Origin: Crambe crambe
Lineage: Eukaryota; Porifera; Demospongiae; Poecilosclerida; Crambeidae
NCBI GenBank assembly: GCA_963924555.1
Contig: OZ004587.1
Coordinates: 2,108,001-2,172,000, forward strand
Reading direction: 5' to 3'
Length of the DNA: 64,000 nt
The number at the start of each line of letters is the position of its first letter. Position 1 is the first letter of the stretch. The notes beneath the pieces were generated by a model, which worked only from the letters and a program-made list of their open reading frames with translations, searched no databases and had not been told where the DNA came from. The position numbers were made by a program, and so were the translations under genes. This document shows, piece by piece, positions 5,089 through 44,544 of this stretch.

Positions 5089-5157
5089 ATGACTGATGTA
5101 GCTGTGAAGAAGACCACTACCATCAATGTAATTGATGAAGATACTACTGAGATCAAG
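5089..5157 (+). pseudogene. Talin-tail exon beta, copy A2 (open, internally deleted)
   Basis: This 69-nt exon has intact splice sites (TACTGTAG; GTATAT) and reads openly MTDVAVKKTTTINVIDEDTT then EIK. About 21 nt of the middle of the canonical exon are missing in frame. Confidence 0.6.
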
Positions 5158-5515
5158 GTATATACGTATGTGTACATTAAACAAACCTCTTAAAATTCCA
5201 GCTGTTCAACTTGTGCTGAAGTATAGTCAACCTCCAACTTTCCTTAATCTAAGGGGACACCCCTCATCAAATTTATCAGTGGAGGTACTTACCCAATTAC
5301 CCTTTCATACATGTGGAATACTTTGCTCCTTGGATACTACACAGCATGTCCCCATGTTCCCTGCTGGCAGAGTATCTACGGTTACCAGGATACTCCTGGG
5401 ATACTACACATACACTGTGGTGTATTCCCACATAACCTCTGTATATGTGTTTATGATTGGGGATGGAGTTTTGACTGTCTCAATTCAAATGAGTGGATGG
5501 TTTTTGTGTGTGCAG

Positions 5516-5671
5516 GCTAAACTGGTTGCCAGTGCTAGGAGCAATCTGTGTGAAGCTGCCAATATGGAGTGGTGAACAGTATAATGGCTACCAAGACTGT
5601 GGCCTCTCCTCTACTGCTCAGCTGCTCAATGCCTATCAGGTGAAGGCTGATGGAGCAACAGGAGATTACAG
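5516..5671 (+). pseudogene. Talin-tail exon delta, copy A
   Basis: The acceptor is GTGTGCAG and the donor GTACAT. It starts AKLVASARSNLCEAAN, which matches the talin I/LWEQ motif around A-A-T-N-N-L-C-E-A-A-N. It then hits TGA, and the following STAQLLNAYQVKAD block (talin S-T-A-Q-L-L-V-A-C-K-V-K-A-D) is in another frame. It is broken by a frameshift and a stop. Confidence 0.7.
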
Positions 5672-8308: not shown

Positions 8309-9553
8309 TTATAAAGTACGCAAGTAATCCACCACCTCACTGTGACCGTTCGCTTGGGCCAGCTGGAGTGGTGTCTGGTTGGAAATGTTCTTGATGTTTG
8401 GGGGGCAACGGGCCTGTTCAACGAGATGTTGCACTATTGCGAGATGATTGTTATATGCTGCTAAATGGAGTGGAGTGTTTTTCCTCTTGTTTTGATACGT
8501 AACGATACAATCTTTGTTTTTAGTTAGATATTGCACGACAGAGAGATGTCCAAACTGAGCTGCCAGGTGCAGAGGTGTGGAATTATTATCGTCCAGAATA
8601 TTGGGGTCACAGCCATGCTTCTCAATGAGGTTCTTGACAAGGTGGAGGTGACCCTTTTGTGAAGCATGATGCAGTGGAGATCTTCCATACTCACCTGGAA
8701 GATGAGGACTGCACTGCATTACAGTGATGAAGTACTCCACCACATCACTGTGACCTTCAAGAGCTGCTAAATGCATTGGAGTTTGGTTATAGTTATCTCT
8801 TGTAGTTGGTTTACATTTCCTATCTGCTGTGAGATATTTGACTGTTTCCAAGTGACCATTCATTGCAGCGAGATGTAGGGGTGTGTCTTGATTCGTGTCT
8901 GTAGAAGCTGGGTCACACCCACACTCCACTATCAAGTACTTGACAGTGGACAGGTGACCCTTCTCAGCAGCCATAAAGAGAGGTCCTCTACCAGCCACAC
9001 CATAAGGAAGGTTGGGGTCACATCCACATTCCTCAATGAGGAACTTGATGATATTGGTGTGACCCTTATGAGCTGCCTCGATGATGGGAGGATTCTTGAA
9101 CTTGGTGGGAAATGTTAAAATGTCATTTATTGACACATGTTGCAGCATCGACTGTATCAAATGTTTGACGGTTTCTAAACTACCACTATAACAAGCCCAG
9201 TGTAAAGGTAAATAACCATCTTCATCCTGTTCAAGAGGGTTGGCTTTATGCTTGTCCATTAAATACTGCACGATAGAGAAGTCCCCTGCTTCGGCTGCAC
9301 TGTGGAGAGGTGTTTTACCATGCCAGCCATGGAGTGCATGGTTGTAGTGTAGATCCTCAGTAAGGTACTTGATCACCTCCAGCTTTCCAAATCTTGCTGC
9401 TGTATGTAGAGTTGTGTTATTATCACTGTTCTTTGTTAAAGGATCCAGTCCCTTTGCTATGAGACGTTTAACTTCTTCCAGGTTTCCTTCTTTGGCAGCA
9501 TCGTGTAGGTCTGAGTTGTGCTCTGTTGTGGTTTCTAATGAGACTGTCTTTTC
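8309..9553 (-). CDS. Terminal exon: 12 ankyrin repeats
   Basis: This 1,245-nt exon (residues about 2108-2521) runs from acceptor CACATAACAG, phase 0, to TAA at 8309-8311. Twelve ankyrin repeats can be counted by their TPLHLAA-type helix starts: DLHDAAKEG, TTLHTAARFG, TPLHSAAEAG, LPLHWACYSG, PPIIEAAHKG, GPLFMAAEKG, TPLHLAAMNG, TPMHLAALEG, SPLHHASQKG, TPLHLAAQFG, TPLHLAAYNN, TPLQLAQANG. Ankyrin repeats bind protein partners and would be the recognition arm of the large protein. The exon lies inside the segmental duplication. Its counterpart at 47500-47027 has lost seven repeats. This phase-0 acceptor is the only route found from exon 12714-12677 to a stop codon. Confidence 0.88.
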   Translation of the reverse strand, partial: EKTVSLETTTEHNSDLHDAAKEGNLEEVKRLIAKGLDPLTKNSDNNTTLHTAARFGKLEVIKYLTEDLHYNHALHGWHGKTPLHSAAEAGDFSIVQYLMDKHKANPLEQDEDGYLPLHWACYSGSLETVKHLIQSMLQHVSINDILTFPTKFKNPPIIEAAHKGHTNIIKFLIEECGCDPNLPYGVAGRGPLFMAAEKGHLSTVKYLIVECGCDPASTDTNQDTPLHLAAMNGHLETVKYLTADRKCKPTTRDNYNQTPMHLAALEGHSDVVEYFITVMQCSPHLPGEYGRSPLHHASQKGHLHLVKNLIEKHGCDPNILDDNNSTPLHLAAQFGHLSVVQYLTKNKDCIVTYQNKRKNTPLHLAAYNNHLAIVQHLVEQARCPPNIKNISNQTPLQLAQANGHSEVVDYLRTL

Positions 9554-10395
9554 CTGTTATGTGAGAGAAGAATTCAGTGTGAACTTAAATTTCATCGACT
9601 TATATCTCATACATGGGTGAGATCAAAGGGCCGCGGCTAGTCATGTTGCCCTATCGTCCATGGAAACAATGTTTAATCTCCATGGAGACAAGAATGCGTG
9701 GCCACTAAGTGTCAAGGTAAAGTTACTTTACTGTAGCTAGCCTAGTCTATACTCACCTTAGCTAGCTATAGCAGGATATAAAACAGGGTACCATGGGGTT
9801 ATGGATAATAACCCTCGCCCTAGGGCTGCGCATTGCACCCATGTTCTATTACATAGAAATCTAGAAGTTTTTGAATTCAATATCAAGTCACAATGAAGAA
9901 GTTTTATTCATCTGAATATGATCTGGAAGTTTATGGGTTGTGTCTCTATTTACAACATTGAGTTACATGAAGTACAACATTGCTTACAAGTAACTGTAAT
10001 TAGAGCTTGTAATGATTGTATGTAGCTAGTGCTACACACTTCTCCTGTGCATTAGACACAGAGATATAGCTGAAGTCAATGCTCATTATTAATACACATA
10101 CGCATGTAGTAGTTATAAACATTATAATAGGAAATTAATTTGTGCTTTTTAAGTGGTCACAGGTAACACAAAATTTTTGTTGGGTTTGAGGATATAGAAT
10201 AGGCATGACTGCTGGTCATATCACAATCTGATTGGTCAATTACCATGTGATATGAGCATGACTATAGTTGTATTAACGTACTATTATTGCTAGGAGATTT
10301 TCATAGATGAATTTCTAAAATAAAATGTTTGCTCTCTCCACCTAGTACCTGCTAGTTGAGAAAATTTTAAAACTGAAAGGAATGAAATGGAAGGG

Positions 10396-12714: not shown

Positions 12715-12772
12715 CTGTATGTGCAAGAAATGTTTCAATGTGCATAAGTTAACAGTTGAATGTGAAACATAC

Positions 12773-13043
12773 CAGTTTCTGGGGATGGAGGCAGAATCTC
12801 TATCATATGCCAATGGATCCAATGGGTCTTCCTTCCCAACCAAGCCCATTCAAACTGGGGAGGTTTTCCAAAGGCACTAGATTGCTTGAATATACCAGTA
12901 TCTCCCTTGATAATGGATATGTAGTCATTGATTGCTCGTACTTTCATCCCTGGCTTCAAGGTGGACTTGACATACTTCCCATAGTCACTATCATTGTTGT
13001 AGTCTTCACGTTTCTTGTATGGACTCATACTCCCTTTCCCCTT
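12773..13043 (-). CDS. Exon: SH3-like barrel domain
   Basis: This 271-nt exon (residues about 2005-2094) has acceptor AATTATGCAG and donor GTATGT, phase 0 to 1. After a Lys/Asp-rich start, the sequence has small-barrel features: LKPGMKVRAINDYISI, KGDTGIFKQS, then FEWAWLGRKTHWIHWHMIEI, with conserved Gly, Asp-Thr-Gly and several Trp. This resembles SH3-like or Mind-bomb/HERC2-type barrels that bind peptides. The family assignment is tentative. It lies after a 3.76-kb intron holding two long foldback repeats. Confidence 0.7.
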
Positions 13044-14846
13044 CTGCATAATTCATGTTAAAATAATAATGTGTAATGTAAGATGGTACCGTAAATTCGA
13101 TGATAGGGGATTATTATTTTGTACCACATGTAAACTTCCTCTTCACCTTCATCAGAGCAAATTGAAATATTCATAAATTTTATCACTGCATATATCTGAC
13201 CAGCATTGCTTTTATCAAAGATGAGCTAACTATAACTTGATAGGAATGCACAGAGAGAAGCATGTTATTAAATATGCAGGTTTGAAATGTGAAGATTACA
13301 CAATTTGTAATCAGAACATGAAAGGAAAATAGAAAATTAGAGCATGCCTAGAAACCACATAATGCTTCATGGACTATGTTCAAAACGATGTCAAGCAGAG
13401 CTCCATGCCAAGGCTCTGAGTCTTTGCAGAGACTGGACTATCATGGAGCTGCAAAGAAGCAATCAGTTACCAAGCCAAAGGATTTCTCCTCTGCCAATGA
13501 TCATCTGAAGGAGATTTTACATGAGCAAAATAAATTCATTTTCAAAGGAATTTGTAGTTATTGCACTACTTTATAGAGATGCTAGCAATCGAAATCTATC
13601 TGGAAAAAAAATACTGGATCCTGAAGAACTTATACAATAATTACAATAATAACTAGGGCAATGTGTAACATTTGACAGCGAGTGAGCAAGAAGCAAGTAT
13701 AGTATTCCTATGGCTTAGAGCTGATTGGCTCTAATTCATTTGTGCTTCAAATCTTTGCTGTTGAGTGATGTAAGTGGCAGGCAGTTGCATGCATATAAGG
13801 AACAAAGCAATGTAGAAATCAATCCAGTAATTACAATTGGAGCATGCGCATAAATGCACATACTATTTGACGACACTTACATATGTATGCACGTACATAA
13901 GCCTTGGTCATTTTGGAGTGTAGACCTATAGATATATCAGAGAGTACGATAGTACTCTCTAAGTAGGGATGGCATGGATCGCCTATGTAGCATTTTCTTT
14001 CATAATTCAAGAATACTTCCCTCCTACAGCACTGGCGTAGGAATGGGGGAGGGGGGGGGGGCACCCTTATGTTCAGCTATAGCTACCACAGCAGAAAATA
14101 TTTGTATTAGTGAACCAATAAAGAATAAATTACTTTGGAGTTTGATTTCTTCTAAAAACTGTACAGTCAGCAACTCCTAACTTGAAGACAGAACACCTTT
14201 AATATGCTAGGACTCAATTATGAAGAGCAGAAGACAAAGCAGTATCATTTTACAGTGACTTCTAAAATCACCGTTTTTATCTAGTCATTCATCATCATCA
14301 TCATCATCAAACAACATATTTCAGAAATGGTTCATTCAAATGCTATATACCACACTACTCAGAATTGACTGCGCTATAATCCTTTACCTTAACTCGACAA
14401 GTTCAAAAATAGCACGTCATTTTCCAACTTGCTAGCTTGCAGCCTACAACATTTCTATGCCCCACCCCCTTGGACCTTGACCTCACAACTGTCTAGCAAA
14501 TCTGTCATTAGCTTTCGTTGGTCTCTTGAGCGTAAACCCTAGGCACTAGTCTTGTTATAAATCAAGCCTTGATGCAACAGTATGTCAGGTACATATCAGT
14601 AAAGACCTTAAAAATTATATACAAATTAGGTCTATGGCTATCTTATTATAAACTGTATAGCTAGATAGCATTAGTCCTTCCAGATCAGAATTATTTCGGC
14701 TCATATGATATTATGATGAAACCTCCAATATTGAGCTACATAGCTACAATATATGAACTTTAAACTTGGATAGCAGGATCACAGCATCCAGTTGCCTATA
14801 ATAAACATTACATCAAAAAAGGTGATGAACAAGTAAAGGAAAAAAT

Positions 14847-17221: not shown

Positions 17222-19165
17222 CTAGCCATTTCAATACGTCGGAACCTGGAGAAAAAACTTCATTTCTTTCACACTCCATTAATCTATAACCACTTTCTTT
17301 AAAGAAAGAACATGTGTGCTTTTCATCTGTTTTTCTACAATTGCAGTAGAATGAGATATTAGAATCAAAGTTATGGCCATTAATGAGTTTTATCTTCTCT
17401 AGGCATTGAAGAATGATGGAAGCAATCAGATGGTAATTTGCAGGCTTTTTCTTATTGTCTGATTTCACATAAACTTCAATATATGGTGATATGAATGAGA
17501 TGGTTACAACACAATCGAGTTCAGAGGCCCTAAATGTTGCACAATTTTTGTACAAGCATACAGGATTTCCAGACTGATCTTTAGCTATGATCCAAGACTG
17601 CTTCAAGAGACATGATACCATCATGGATAAGAACTGATTTCCAGCAGTGGGACACTTAATAATTGCAGGAACAAGTTTCAAATCAATGGCCTTACCACAT
17701 ATCTCTTGTTGTTCAGCTTCATTTAAAGGTTGGAGCAGGAAAGGTATGATGTACTTGGAATCACTACCAAAAGGAGCCAGTATCATCAACTCTTTGAATA
17801 ATAACAAGAAATCATTTTCAGATACAAACTCTGACCCGTTAGTATAAAATCCAAGCATGTACTGGAAGTCTTTTTTAGTGATGATCGATGACTGCCAGCC
17901 AATTGAAGGTTTGCTTGACTTCATTAGATTATACAAAGAAGAAAATATCTTTGAAAAAGTTGAAGCTCCTGAAAAAGCAATATTGGGTAGTATATCTTTG
18001 AAGTAAAGGATCATGTTGTGTTCTGTCAAATGTTCAAGTGCTGCTTCAACTGTTGGTCTGTCCATATTCAACTCTTTGCCTATTTTCATACAATGCTCTG
18101 AAACACTCACTACTCTCAAATTTGTGGACGTAATATATTCCCTCAATTTGAAGCCAAATGTGAACCATGAAAACGGAAATTTCTTTAAACTAGATGCTGA
18201 TATTGCACGTTCAATAACACTGGAACCAATAGAGTAGTCCAATTGTCGAGGAGATTTACATCCTAGACGGAATATATTGCATTGATCTCCAAGAGTTCGC
18301 CGGAGAAAAGTAATTTTAGATTGATTCTCTGTATTGACTCTGTCATAAGTGCCAATAACAAGCAAGTTAGAAATTAGATATTCCTTTTTTTGAAAGAGAT
18401 CCAACTCAATCTGTTGCAATTCTTTGGACAAATTGGTAACGAAAGCATGTAAAGTGACATTCTTGATAAATAGCTCAAGAATTTCGTGGAGCTTGATAAA
18501 GTCAGACCCACAATCGATGACATGGAGTAACTCCATTTCCCCTTTGTTTTCGTACTGTGACATGAATTGTATGGTGTCATTAAAGGATTGTTCAGGATCA
18601 AAACTCTTTTGAGTCACTTCTGATCCAGTCTTTGTTTCTTGTTCATTTTTTTGTGGCGAATTGAGATCTGGCAGATTTACAAGCTCAGAAGAAGTTGTCT
18701 GCTTTTCATCTGTAGGTGCATCATCTGTTATTTCAAGTGGATTTTGCGAAGACAGGGATGGTAGGGGTGATACTTCAGGTGAAGACCTTTGGGGTGATGA
18801 CCTGGTTGAAGATGTTTTTGGTAATGACTTTGGTGGAGACACTGGTAATGAGGTGGAAACTGGTAATGGTGAGTCCTCAGGCTCTGTCTTAGAGTCATCA
18901 GGTGACATTGTAAATGCTAAAATCTCATCATGGTAATTTGTTTCCATTTTCTTAAACATGGTAACACCTTGTTCAGATGCTCGAAAATACACTTCATGTT
19001 CAACAGTTGAGGTGGTTTTCAGAGTTGTTGGGACATGCTCTTGAAGAGCTATGTGTTTAGCACTTGTAACTCCAGAACCAGACAGTCCGAAAAAGAGGAC
19101 TGTTGCAACACTCAGATTAAGAGATCCACTCTTCAGTGCTGTGTCAAATACAGCAGCTGCTTCAT
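17222..19165 (-). CDS. Exon: degenerate Roc (pseudo-GTPase) with COR-like region
   Basis: This 1,944-nt exon (residues about 1260-1907) has acceptor TTTCCTCCTACAG and donor GTAAAT, phase 1 to 1. It repeats the layout of the preceding exon. The P-loop is GLSGSGVTS (about 1286-1294), where the invariant lysine is valine (codon GTT). A G3-like element is VIDCGSDF and the G4-like element is VIGTYDRV. A ~90-residue Ser/Pro/Thr-rich insertion (SPPKSLPKTSSTRSSP and neighbours) separates G1 from G3. The COR-like part includes EHNMILYFKDILPNIAF, FLLLFKELMILAPFG, KYIIPFLLQPL and a Cys-containing tail (FYCNCRK) matching the CKNKSC tail of the first copy. The parallel layout suggests tandem exon duplication followed by loss of GTP binding in the second copy. 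It is probably a structural partner for the active copy (inference). Confidence 0.82.
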
Positions 19166-19279: not shown

Positions 19280-21157
19280 CATGAGACTTTTTGGAAACTG
19301 TTTCATTTCTGAACCAAATCAGTTCTGACCTTTCAAGTTCATTTGACAGTCCATTACTGCATTCACAAATATCTGATTCCAAAGTTAGCTTCTTTATTGA
19401 GTAGAAATGTTTAGCAGTTGATGAGCAGCTTTTATTCTTGCAGGCTAAGGTTATATCAAATTCTCTCTTTTCCAACCAACGTGGAACTATTCGCTGGAGC
19501 TGAACATTTAATGTGGACAAAATATGATAGTAGATATCTTCACTCGAGTTAGCATTGTCATAAGAAACACAGTCGACTCGAATATGATGGGAGAATTCTG
19601 ATAATATCACACGCATGCAATCATTGATTATAAACTCAAACTGATTTCTGCAGGATTCAATGCACTCTTTGCTGTAATTGAGAGGAATCCTCCATCTTGT
19701 GTTGCCATAAGTAACTCCAGCCAATGCAGTTAACAGTCTGGTGAATACACCAGTGGCAATATATCCAGATTCTGGAATTATGTAGAGAGGAGATATGTCT
19801 CCATTTAACTGCTCCAATGCACTTCCATATTCCTCCTTTATGGGCAGTATTGAAGGAATGAAGTAGCAAATTTCTTCCCCAGGAAAATTCACTTTCATGC
19901 TCAGATGATGCTCTTCTAGGAATTCCATGAACCAGTGGTCGTCCAATTTAGTTGATTTCCTGTCAAGAAGGTAGCTGTAAAAGCTCATTGATACGATTCC
20001 TTTTATAGTCAGCTTGCTCCATTCAGCTTTCAGAGATCTTGGATCATAGCAAAAGAGAGTTCCAAGGACTTGCAGCAAGGCTTTGGGATCTATGACAACA
20101 AAGTTCCTCATCGTCCTTCTCTCTGACAGATGGTGCCACATGAACACACCTAGTTCATGGAAATATACAAGGGCAGCTTTAGGTTCGTCGACATGACATT
20201 TGTTCTTGCCAATGGAAATGGCTTCATCCAAGGGAATAATGCCAATATTGATATACTCAGTGTAACACAATCGTTGAAGTGCCAGTTTGAATGCTTGCCA
20301 CGAGCGAGGGATTTCAGATCTTGAATCCTTAGCACATGATGATATTGTGTTTCGAAGGGACTCGATTCCCGAATCACTTTTTTTGTCAAGTGTTTTACCA
20401 GACTTGGTGTTGTCCACTTCATGAATGTAAGACTCACCTTGTTCTAGTACAGTATAGAGTGACAAATCACTTCTGTACTTCTTTGCAAATTTCCCAATGG
20501 CTTCATCTAGAGCATCTTTCTTGTCTTGGAGTGAATTACCCTCAGAGAGAACTGCTTGATCTTTGCATGTCCCAACGACAACTGCTGCAGTTGAAAATCT
20601 CTGGGAATCTCGAGATTTAACTTGTGGTGGTAAGTTCTCCATTTTCTTCTCCACACTGGATGAGAAGGCTTGGACAAAAGATAAGTTGCGATACATGATG
20701 TCTTGATTGGTGAAAGGAGATAAAGCTGGTTCCAGGAAAGACTTGCATGGTCGGATTTCAGGCTTATTGTCGAACTTTTCTAAGTCGCTCAAACGGAACA
20801 CTATTCCATACATGCATTTTAGTCGTGCAAAGCAAGGCAGTAGATCTTGGAATATCGGTTGACCTCCAGTGTCCCACATGGTGAGAAAAACTTTACTTTG
20901 ACAGTCACTGGGTAGATCCAGTAATGGCCTGAAGGCACTTCCAGCAACAGCTGTCATTGATTCCCGATAGAGGAACTCAGGTTGCATGACTATTGTGGGA
21001 GTCTCATTGTCGTCTATTGGTTCGTCTTTGAGATGCTTTCGGAGACTTGTTTTTCCGACTCCAGTGTGGCCTATCAGTATTACATGAATTTGAACTTCAT
21101 CTTCTACAAGATCATTATCAGTAATCTTTACCAAGCCAATCCATGTCTTTTCTGTCT
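19280..21157 (-). CDS. Exon: Roc-type GTPase with COR-like C-terminal region (intact P-loop)
   Basis: This 1,878-nt exon (residues about 634-1259) has acceptor TTCATTATAG and donor GTGAGT, phase 1 to 1. The GTPase domain starts near residue 657. G1 is GHTGVGKTS (663-671), G3 is MWDTGGQ (ending 732) and the G4-like motif is GTCKD (about 828-832), as in Roc domains of Roco proteins. After a helical stretch, a COR-like region follows: a winged-helix-like part (AALVYFHELGVFMWH, FVVIDPKALLQVL), then FIPSILPI and GYIATGVFTRLL blocks, and a Cys-pair-containing end (CKNKSC). Roc-COR modules are GTP-regulated dimerisation switches. All the nucleotide-binding residues I can check are present, so this copy should bind GTP. 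No kinase domain or LRRs are present, unlike LRRK proteins. Confidence 0.85.
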
Positions 21158-21237: not shown

Positions 21238-22854
21238 CCAGTAAGTGCTGAAGTTCATCTGTTAGAACTGAGTAGGAGGCTGGTCTTAATCGAGAGTCTT
21301 TGGATACCCATTTCTGTTCAAAAATGTTCTTCAGCAAATGATTTTCTGGAAGTTGAATATCGGTAGTGATATTACCACGTGAAAATATTGAAAGTATAAT
21401 CTCCTTCATCCATAGCAATTCGTCATGTGATAATGTTTCAGAATTCAATGATGACTGTTCACCAATGAATGACTGACCATAAACAGGGATGAGTTTTGCT
21501 TCCATTTCAGCAGCATTTTTGTGAATGAATATATGGTCCATCACTACCTTTACCTTTTGGTTGAGGTTTTCAAATCTGCTCATGCAACTTGAAATACTCG
21601 TCAGAAGTGATAACTGATTGACTTCCGATTCTCCATAATAATTGGAAGAGGAGGCAACTTCTTTCAAAGGCTCTAATTTCTCAACAATTACTGCTGGATA
21701 TTTCTTTTGTCCTTCCTCCTCTGTTGATGGGTAATACAATCCCTTGATTGATGGAACTTCTTTGTGATCTCGAATCAAGACCTCGAGGTATTTGATATAC
21801 CCTGTATCCACTGTGGATTCTTCGGTAAATTGGTCAGGATACACGAGAGCCATAAACTCTTTGCCTTGATGCTTGGCTGTTACCATCTTACTTTGTTTCT
21901 CATGTAAATGTGATTCTTTCACAGGTGAGTCTGGAGTCTCTAATATGACATCTGTTAGCATCCTCCAGTGCTTCAGCATCACCTCACGTTTCTCAAACTT
22001 GTAGGATTGGACACATTTGTCCTTGATGGCTTTTAGTTTCCTTGGAAAGAGGGGTATATTCTCTAAACGATGCAAGTCATCACAAGGTATTTGAAGGCAA
22101 ATCACTAGACTTCCTATTCCAACTTGATGTATTAATATATTAGCAGAATTCATATCTAAAAGTTTGCTTATAAAAAGCTGGAAGTCAGATATCTCACCAA
22201 TTTCATGATCAGGTGTATTGGAATCGATCACAAACAAAACGTTGCAGTGAGTATCGAGATTTGCAGAAAAGTTTGGACCACGTTCATGTACTCTACATTT
22301 TGCATATCTTTCAAATGCTTCAATGTAGTCTTGACCATTCTTTTTGTCTTGATCAGACCCAGTCCTTCCTATAATTTCTTTTATGAAGAAATTGAAATTC
22401 ATGTAAGATTGATGATCGAAAATTAGTTGCAAAAGCTCCTCTGTGTCTTTATTCTTTTTGATTTCATTCATTGTAGCTTTCTTGAAAGGAAATATGGCTG
22501 ATGCTCTAACAAGTTTTTTGAATTCTGTTTCACATTCTCTACTCAAGAAAGACTCCCTGAAGTCTTCAAATAGAGTGATGAATTTGGATTTAATTTTACT
22601 TGTTTCATCTCTCAACATTGCTAGATAGAGATTGTAATTACCACACACAGGCGGCCATTTGGGTGGTTTTGTACGTAGCACAACTGAATCTTCTTGTGAT
22701 AATTTTGTACTACTGTCTCTTTGAGTATGCAAAGAAGGTTCACATGGAGAGTCAGCAGTGGAGTGTTTCATAGTGCTACTATCAGGCTCATCCACAGAAC
22801 TCTTTTGATTTGTGTTAGCAGATGATATTTTGGAGTTTGGTCCAGATGATGTAG
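21238..22854 (-). CDS. Exon: Ser-rich linker, helical domain and alpha/beta region of unassigned type
   Basis: This 1,617-nt exon (residues about 95-633) runs from acceptor TTGATGTAG to donor GTAAGT, phase 1 to 1. The first ~65 residues are Ser/Thr-rich and probably flexible. A helical stretch follows (from KWPPVCGNYNLYLAML through the FNFFIKEII and YIEAFERYAKCRV motifs), with spacing like a death-fold or CARD-like bundle, but I cannot assign it to a family. Next is an alpha/beta region with hydrophobic strands (NVLFVIDSN, SLVICLQIP) followed by a FPRKLKAIKDKC helix, a pattern that recurs in sponge and cnidarian death-domain proteins. The last ~110 residues are helical and lead into the GTPase exon. 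There are no stops over 539 codons. Function is unknown; oligomerisation or an effector-linked role is a guess. Confidence 0.8.
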
Positions 22855-23638: not shown

Positions 23639-23917
23639 CTTTCTTGGAGCAGTACTTTTCCTGTATTTGTTTTGCTATTCCTGACTCATCAACAGAAGGA
23701 TCGTTAAGAACTGTTACCACAGATTTCCAGGATACTGGAACATTCGTATTCCCATCCAACCAATAGCTCACAGTTTCCGTCAAGCATCTGTAAGTGGAAG
23801 AGTAATTTTCTTCAAATGTTTTAAGTTTGCTTCCTTTGATGCCTAACTGGATGCCTATTCGAAACCACTTGATCTCCACTGCAGCTAGTTCACTTAGAAG
23901 AGTCTTTTCATCAATAT
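23639..23917 (-). CDS. Exon: death domain 1, first domain after the 2A site
   Basis: This is a 279-nt exon, phase 1 to 1, between a CATAG acceptor and a GTATAT donor. It encodes 93 residues, numbered 2-94 from the 2A proline. The pattern is that of a death domain: W-F-R-I-G-I-Q-L-G-I (helix 1), K-L-K-T-F-E, C-L-T-E-T-V-S-Y-W-L (helix 3-4), V-S-W-K-S-V-V-T-V-L (helix 5), then a final helix with I-A-K-Q-I. Death domains form helical-bundle oligomers with other death domains in apoptosis and NF-kB type signalling. Placing it directly after the skipping site means the released downstream protein would begin with Pro-Asp-Ile and a death domain at its extreme N terminus. Confidence 0.82.
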
Positions 23918-25270: not shown

Positions 25271-25588
25271 CAGGACCAGGATTAGTTTCAACATCACCAC
25301 ACAATAACAACTTTAATGGCGCCAACACTTGAAGGTCAGAATAGTGGATAGTGAAAAGATCTCTTCTTCTTCGATACCATTTCCAGTCATCACTAAGAGG
25401 TATGGAAGCATTGTTGTATGCAGTAGTGCAGCCATATTGAAGCTTGCGATTGGTGAACATGGGACACGAGCAACAGGGGCCTTTATACAGGTGAGGTCCA
25501 AGTTTTCTTTCAGATTCAGTTATGGCAAACTTCCACCACAACAATACCAGCAGAAAGTTCAAAGCAAACAAGTATCTTGTGATATCAC
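25271..25588 (-). CDS. Exon: membrane segment, Cys-rich/basic region and 2A-like ribosome-skipping motif
   Basis: The acceptor is TTTTTTATAG before 25588 and the donor GTGAGT starts at 25270, so the exon is 318 nt with phase 1 at both ends. About ten residues in is a hydrophobic segment (LFALNFLLVLLWWKF), then a Cys-containing stretch (PCCSCPMF), a basic patch (WYRRRR) and the terminal motif LLLCGDVETNPGP. D-V/I-E-x-N-P-G-P is the 2A signature: the ribosome skips the Gly-Pro bond and releases two proteins from one frame. The motif occupies 25298-25272, and the exon ends one base after the final Pro codon. The next exon supplies AT to give Asp, continuing in frame into a death domain. No ATG lies upstream in this exon, so translation must enter from an upstream exon, or start at an internal ATG in PMFTN. 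2A-like motifs are also common in non-LTR retrotransposons, but no RT homology is seen here. Confidence 0.85.
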
Positions 25589-32013: not shown

Positions 32014-32234
32014 CATTGTTTAATAAATCCTGCATTTTGAGTTTGTATAAAAAGATGACAGTTATCAACAACCACCATGCAGTCAAAATGAAAGGGATGA
32101 ACCAGACATGGCGGGAAAGGACAGGGTAGCCTCTCTGCTTTGGTCTATGGCCATTGAAGCAATAATATGGCCTCAGGTACTGGACCCGTGACTTCCACAA
32201 CTGCACCAGTTCAGACCTGATCATCCTCTCACAC
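32014..32234 (-). CDS. Possible exon with a transmembrane segment
   Basis: This is a 221-nt stretch, open in one frame, between a good acceptor (ATCATTTTAG) and donor (GTGAGA). It encodes CERMIRSELVQLWKSRVQYL, a Pro/Arg-containing segment, and a long hydrophobic helix (WFIPFILTAWWLLITVIFLY) followed by KLKMQDLLNNG. Phase is 2 at the start and 1 at the end, so it could splice to either the half SRCR exon or the 2A exon downstream. I do not recognise the family, and linkage to the 2A gene is only a phase-based suggestion. Confidence 0.4.
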
Positions 32235-43961: not shown

Positions 43962-44030
43962 ATGACTGATGTAGCTGTGAAGAAGACCACTACCATCAAT
44001 GTAATTGATGGAGATACTACTGAGATCAAG
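43962..44030 (+). pseudogene. Talin-tail exon beta, copy B5 (open)
   Basis: It is the same open short form as 5089-5157, with one change in the acidic stretch (GDTTEIK for EDTTEIK). The flanks also match copy A from about 43,845 to 44,560. Confidence 0.6.
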
Positions 44031-44388
44031 GTATATACGTATGTGTATATTAAACAAACCTCTTAAAATTCCAGCTGTTCAACTTGTGCTGAAGTATAGT
44101 CAACCTCCAACTTTCCTTAATCTGAGGGGACACCCCTCATCAAATTTATCAGTGGAGGTACTTACCCAATTACCTTTTCATACATGTGGAATACTTTGCT
44201 CCTTGGATACTACACAGCATGTCCCCATGTTCCCTGCTGGCAGAGTATCTATGTTCACCAGGATACTCCTGGGATACTACACATACACTGTGGTGTATTC
44301 CCACATAACCTCTGTATATGTGTTTATGATTGGGGATGGAGTTTTGACTGTCTCAATTCAAATGAGTGAATGGTTTTTGTGTGTGCAG

Positions 44389-44544
44389 GCTAAACTGGTT
44401 GCCAGTGCTAGGAGCAATCTGTGTGAAGCTGCCAATATGGAGTGGTGAACAGTATAATGGCTACCAAGACTGTGACCTCTCCTCTACTGCTCAGCTGCTC
44501 AATGCCTATCAGGTGAAGGCTGATGGAACAATAGGAGATTACAG
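44389..44544 (+). pseudogene. Talin-tail exon delta, copy B2
   Basis: It is near-identical to 5516-5671, including the TGA after CEAANMEW and the shifted STAQLLNAYQVKAD block, so that damage predates the duplication or was spread by conversion. Confidence 0.65.

Follow-up and report, generated by a model that had tools for sequence, protein, structure and literature searches.

Can one gene of an animal-type genome make two separate proteins from a single message by letting the ribosome skip a peptide bond? This question is raised by an exon on the minus strand of the 64,000-nucleotide stretch of DNA analyzed here (hereafter, the window), which ends on a 2A-like motif, CGDVETNPGP. A preliminary description of this DNA reported that the next exon adds an Asp in frame, and proposed that one mRNA yields a membrane peptide and a separate protein starting with Pro and a death domain. 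We have examined the gene model of the window, the copies of the motif and its exon in the same genome, the domains that follow the motif, and the known systems to which this arrangement can be compared.

The motif exon and the gene model of the window

The decapeptide CGDVETNPGP is encoded by the minus-strand codons 25301-25272 (TGT GGT GAT GTT GAA ACT AAT CCT GGT CCT). Base 25271, a G, is the last base of the motif exon and is followed by GTGAGTAT, a GTGAGT donor in phase 1. The acceptor, TTGTTTTCATAG / TTTTCATAG, lies immediately before 23917, and the split codon G/AT reads Asp. The motif and its in-frame Asp had thus been read correctly to the base. The octapeptide DVETNPGP conforms to the StopGo/2A core (D/G/C/N)(V/I)ExNPGP (65 copies were aligned). 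The sequence ahead of it is of the permissive type, L-rich and ending in A/S/C-G (APLKLLLCG in the window, LILAG in paralogues), as judged by eye against section 10 of PMC12846837; according to that paper, one element with an L-rich context of this class is active in translation assays.

When the six exons of the model (Table 1) are spliced in silico, an unbroken frame of 1,483 residues without a stop runs through the motif into the downstream protein, with the octapeptide starting at residue 218 and the motif ending at residue 225. All five junctions are in phase 1, each of the five later exons has a length divisible by three, and the introns are about 0.9-5.3 kb long. Two exons upstream of the motif exon were absent from the earlier reading. 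One of them, exon 1, has an ATG start, codes MIRSELVQLWKSRVQYLRPYYC...HVWFIPFILTAWWLLITVIFLYKLK and carries another transmembrane helix.

Table 1. Exons of the window gene model and the position of the motif
Feature	Position in window	Strand	Details
Exon 1, counted from its ATG: transmembrane helix 1 behind a basic N-terminal tail	32014..32224	-	tail net +7; phase-1 end before GTGAGAAT
First half of an SRCR domain, between the two helices	26528..26674	-	147 nt, symmetric 1-1; Pfam SRCR 27.7 bits, cut-off 26.1
Transmembrane helix 2, Cys-containing tail, 2A/StopGo motif at the 3' end	25271..25588	-	318 nt, phase 1-1
Core octapeptide DVETNPGP	25272..25295	-	predicted skip between Gly and the last Pro codon
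Death-domain exon (predicted fold)	23639..23917	-	279 nt, phase 1-1; post-skip product would start Pro-Asp-Ile-Asp
Linker exon	21238..22854	-	539 codons; no Pfam match
Exon with a Roc/Ras-type GTPase domain	19280..21157	-	Pfam Roc 39.4 bits, cut-off 27

The gene probably continues past the Roc exon, since a further exon fits at 19165. Pfam scans of the window ORFs detected Roc and ankyrin and no NACHT, and the Roc exon has no Pfam match to COR. ROCO/death-domain GTPases carry a death domain and a Roc GTPase in one protein, and the window gene model resembles them in this respect. It differs from them in the 2A leader upstream and in the lack of a Pfam COR match in the window exon. An ankyrin exon (8309-9556) lies further on than the Roc part, and between the two there is a Cul7-type domain exon (12735-13052, 63.9 bits), which may belong to the same gene as the Roc part. 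The window also contains two nearly identical plus-strand ORFs of 147 aa (5132-5575 and 44005-44448), perhaps an interspersed repeat.

The nature of the first product depends on what lies upstream of the motif exon. Exon 1 has 70 matches in the genome, some of them partial homologues. Such a homologue is found upstream, on the same strand and within 20 kb, for 66 of 67 motif exons (median distance 1.55 kb, largest 15.9 kb); on the wrong side the corresponding count is 8 of 67, and on the opposite strand it is 0. Three copies of exon 1 have no motif exon among the motif exons listed. Because this paired exon supplies a start codon and another helix, the predicted product ahead of the skip would be a two-helix membrane protein (224 residues with the half-SRCR exon) rather than a mere peptide, its second helix and a tail of about 80 residues preceding the motif. 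The earlier proposal therefore needs revision as to its first product. It is supported in so far as the motif is canonical, in frame and constrained, with phase-compatible splice sites to the exon of the predicted death domain.

The leader has two hydropathy peaks, and its charges (+7 in the N-tail, -6 in the loop, +3 in the C-tail) suggest that both ends are cytosolic and that the SRCR half-domain is outside or in the lumen. The motif would thereby be placed in the cytosol. This is consistent with passages of PMC2978324 in which some upstream parts inhibit 2A when they are translocated into the ER, and a fused product can arise. Structure prediction of the leader exon gave a mean pLDDT of 61.9 and was confident only for helix 2 (residues 2-29), most of the tail being poorly predicted. 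The half-SRCR exon stands alone between the two transmembrane exons, with no second half of the SRCR domain seen. It recurs at about the same place in all six close paralogue loci (L009-L014), and it is possibly a cassette exon.

Copies of the leader and constraint on the core

The degenerate pattern D[VI]ExNPGP has 208 matches in the 143-Mb assembly and the reversed pattern has none, which shows that the motif is not a product of chance. A search of the same genome with the 106-residue motif exon returned 111 matches (E up to 10), 65 of them with E ≤1.8e-16. We examined 69 loci, namely the window and L009-L076; 67 of these belong to the leader family of the window, the remaining two being L027 and L028. 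NPGP is followed by GGT in 67 of the 69 loci and by the strict GGTRAG in 59 of 68, L028 being left out of the latter count. The motif is thus not a lone case: one genome holds 208 motifs, and 67 copies of the leader exon were examined in it.

Sixty-five copies were aligned, after L027, L028, L037 and L075 had been dropped as belonging to another family, interrupted or short. Among the 64 distinct copies, pS and pN of the core are 0.240 and 0.007, giving a pN/pS of 0.029, compared with 0.47 for the median 8-codon block and 0.52-0.65 for four other parts of the exon. Thirteen DNA spellings of the core encode only three peptide versions (DVET, DIET or DVEI before NPGP). The codons vary and the residues hardly do: the core is under strong constraint at the protein level. 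In one further copy (L037, C11:2665908-2666790), the leader exon matches only up to residue 99, and the CGDVETNPGP core lies about 500 bases further on. With dozens of related genes carrying this leader, it has the look of a conserved and regularly used device for obtaining two proteins from one message and not of a freak motif.

Other leader types are also present. At 12 further motif sites (L077-L088) the upstream sequence differs by eye from the window leader, and the L-rich (A/S/C)GDVExNPGP is of the same kind; only L088 among them was matched by the leader search, with an E value of 1.1. As different upstream sequences carry the same context and core, the skipping device seems to have been used, or to have spread, more than once. 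In L028, long, seemingly extracellular open frames are followed after about 450 bp by the motif exon, and this in turn by a death-type exon.

Relatives of the leader were also found among public proteins. The leader-exon profile identified 80 proteins among the 7,998 best candidates scored, and 78 of the 80 carry the core (P0013 and P0025 lack it); this is a biased count, as the candidates were chosen by shared five-residue words, a choice that favors proteins retaining the motif. For 19 of the 80, a copy from this genome matches with at least 80% identity over 60 residues or more, and a few others seem close to such a copy. Of the remainder, P0032 and P0034 reach no full-length match above 48% anywhere in the genome and must therefore come from another one. 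Relatives from elsewhere, as aligned below, share 23-37% identity with the motif exon of the window. We aligned 30 rows, consisting of 24 hand-chosen proteins of the 80, all motif-bearing, and six exons of this genome; seven rows are from this genome, P0018 being a copy from it (100% to L076), and 23 are from elsewhere. Column identity averages 28% in these motif-bearing rows, and no column is invariant except those of the motif residues G, D, E, T, N, P, G and P. One short public protein, P0079, has two 2A motifs in 86 residues. A predicted full-length protein of about 790-2,500 residues with the leader was not found among 356 candidates (none with E ≤10). Another search for such a protein gave 12 proteins, which all have SRCR in their precomputed domains and were taken as SRCR matches.

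Domains downstream of the motif

A death-domain fold is predicted for the exon that follows the motif in the window. Its AlphaFold2 model has a pLDDT of 94.8 and five helices of at least four residues. The 12 best Foldseek matches to this model are death domains or contain one, FADD and TNFR1 among them, with TMq of 0.61-0.76; the best E value is 0.056, and none falls below 0.05. FADD was also matched by profile, with an E value of 0.0022. The Pfam scan of this exon alone gave no death-domain match, and Pfam Death was above cut-off in three (L010, L015 and L024) of the six aligned exons scanned.

Relatives of this exon were sought in 20 fetched 10-kb loci. The motif is followed by one in 8 of these loci and preceded by one in L020; 12 of the 20 gave no relative downstream within the stretch. 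The paralogue loci also show other downstream domains: L026 has a NACHT exon, L027 ankyrin repeats and L015 a Roc-type gene.

A second death-type exon was also sought. With a query that was a family-specific typed blend, and using its best 150 matches, such an exon was found within 3 kb downstream of at least 42 of the 200 motif sites listed, upstream of one and antisense at none. Shifted positions (3-50 kb) gave a mean of 7.2 and a maximum of 14. Twenty-two of the 42 sites form one tandem cluster on C9 and five belong to the leader family of the window; the window site itself is not among them. The Pfam Death model behaved differently: its best 150 matches, compared with 200 of the 208 motif sites within 12 kb, fell five times downstream and five times upstream (shifted mean 1.2, maximum 6). 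As the two counts are equal, that test gave no support, and the link between motif and death domain rests on the family-specific query. For the best 103 Pfam NACHT matches, with the same 200 of 208 sites and the same distance, there were six downstream and one upstream (shifted mean 1.1, maximum 4).

The cluster on C9 (C9:306738-572049) comprises 23 motif sites, of which 21 use the Ser codon TCT (DVESNPGP), and at 22 of the 23 a death-type exon follows within 0.3-0.85 kb. It is probably a second receptor-plus-effector arrangement, the upstream frames appearing extracellular in L028, the one locus read. At C5:9012949-9049693, a Pfam Death match starts 132-136 bases from the motif start in four of five sites.

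Proposed working, rival readings and significance

We propose that one spliced mRNA is translated, by predicted ribosome skipping, into two proteins, a small one in the membrane and a death-domain/Roc GTPase made separately from it, a reading that we consider quite probable. The first product would consist of a cytosolic N-terminus, helix 1, a short loop that may include the half-SRCR, helix 2 and a cytosolic tail. At the end of this tail, the L-rich segment and DVETNPG would stall the ribosome, and the Gly-Pro bond would not be made. The membrane protein would then be released, and translation would resume from Pro to give the separate effector. Efficient skipping is expected, which would leave both proteins free, the second starting with proline; any small share that escapes skipping would be an effector tethered to the membrane. 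Because the motif is at the end of an exon, the leader may act as a portable phase-1 exon set placed before several signaling domains (death fold, Roc, NACHT, ankyrin). In addition, the 1-1 phase of all later exons would allow splicing to omit the motif exon, in which case helix 1 would tether the effector. We infer splicing in vivo, skipping, topology and biological role alike from the sequence.

The arrangement is not without precedent. The nearest known case is that of the 2A signals of sea-urchin NLRs, and the precedent invoked in the preliminary description is real. Passages of PMC4981915 describe 26-residue N-terminal 2A-like signals in 14 of 87 NLR entries of Strongylocentrotus purpuratus, which give cytosolic and secreted forms of a reporter. 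As far as those passages go, both systems place the motif ahead of a death-domain, immune-type host protein, with a membrane-targeting sequence upstream and many paralogues. In the sea urchin, however, the signal is short and the unskipped form is secreted, whereas the leader of the window gene spans several exons and is predicted to have both its ends in the cytosol, its motif coming at an exon end, after two helices. Since this leader is longer, with two helices and a predicted cytosolic end, its unskipped form would be tethered, not secreted. The sea-urchin combination of NACHT and LRR downstream was not found among the window ORFs scanned, although the L026 paralogue has a NACHT exon. The present family also differs in its 67 examined copies, the additional leader types and the range of downstream domains (Roc in the window, NACHT in L026, ankyrin in L027).

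It is conceivable, although unlikely, that the leader serves only to target the membrane, as in the sea urchin, with 2A setting the ratio of tethered to free effector and the released leader having no role of its own. The NLR signals in the passages of PMC4981915 partition the downstream product in this way, and in both cases the motif is N-terminal to a death domain. On the other hand, a leader of two or three exons with two helices is longer than a mere targeting signal needs, and its pN/pS outside the core still suggests some constraint.

Much less probable is an inert motif in a gene that makes one fused, membrane-anchored death-domain protein. Such a reading could draw on the dependence of 2A activity on context, with ER translocation of the upstream part leading to a fused product (passages of PMC2978324). 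It conflicts with selection on exactly the StopGo residues, where codon changes are silent, and with the invariance of these residues in the diverged relatives aligned. To our knowledge, there is no reason for a fusion protein to keep NPGP.

Slightly less probable again is that the leader and death-domain exons are separate neighboring genes that are not spliced together. The length of the window introns and the 12 fetched loci without a downstream death-domain relative, together with the one upstream, would fit this. The GGT that follows NPGP almost throughout, the agreement of frames and phases at all five window junctions, and the position of the second death-type exon, which is usually downstream of the motif sites and on their strand, speak against it.

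An L-rich context occurs in the 2A-like motifs of non-LTR retrotransposons and viruses as well. That such an element was inserted in the gene is the least probable reading of all, for although its motif class is known there (cited in PMC4981915 and PMC11512398, as seen in their passages), the motif here belongs to a gene family that occurs in clusters and has downstream exons coding death, NACHT or ankyrin domains, Pfam found no reverse transcriptase or endonuclease, and no other retroelement protein, in six window ORFs, and no leader relative was found in phages or viral contigs. An old origin of the motif from a non-LTR retrotransposon or virus is possible.

Within the titles and opening abstracts found, no 2A in a sponge gene was named; outside that scope lies Rao et al. 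2025 (Cell Reports 44, 115822), which reportedly surveys the 2A sequences of eukaryotes and viruses. NPGP is absent from the passages of PMC12909245 on Dysidea NLRs.

Returning to the production of a membrane protein and an effector from one mRNA, we tentatively extend it to the whole genome, at somewhat less than even chances. Skipping would then be a genome-wide device, with about 200 sites and several leader types, in which each mRNA gives, in a fixed ratio, a partner that is secreted or in the membrane and a separate intracellular effector of the death-fold, NACHT, Roc or ankyrin type. The two would be functional partners (receptor or anchor plus effector), and incomplete skipping would give the tethered form. 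The core D(V/I)ExNPGP and the L-rich hexapeptide ending in (A/S/C)G are shared with the viral L-rich StopGo/2A elements treated in the passages of PMC12846837. Unlike those, the motifs described here belong to an intron-bearing gene family of an animal-type genome and are under selection there. The same passages describe StopGo use in cellular genes as only rare. If they are working, some 200 sites in a single animal-type genome, one family of which is under selection and tied to intracellular signaling domains, would overturn this view, and would bear on the proposals in that source to target StopGo as a virus-only process. If the proposed reading is true, the family would offer a natural animal system for studying regulated skipping, and a route by which one immune-type gene supplies a cytosolic effector along with its membrane partner.
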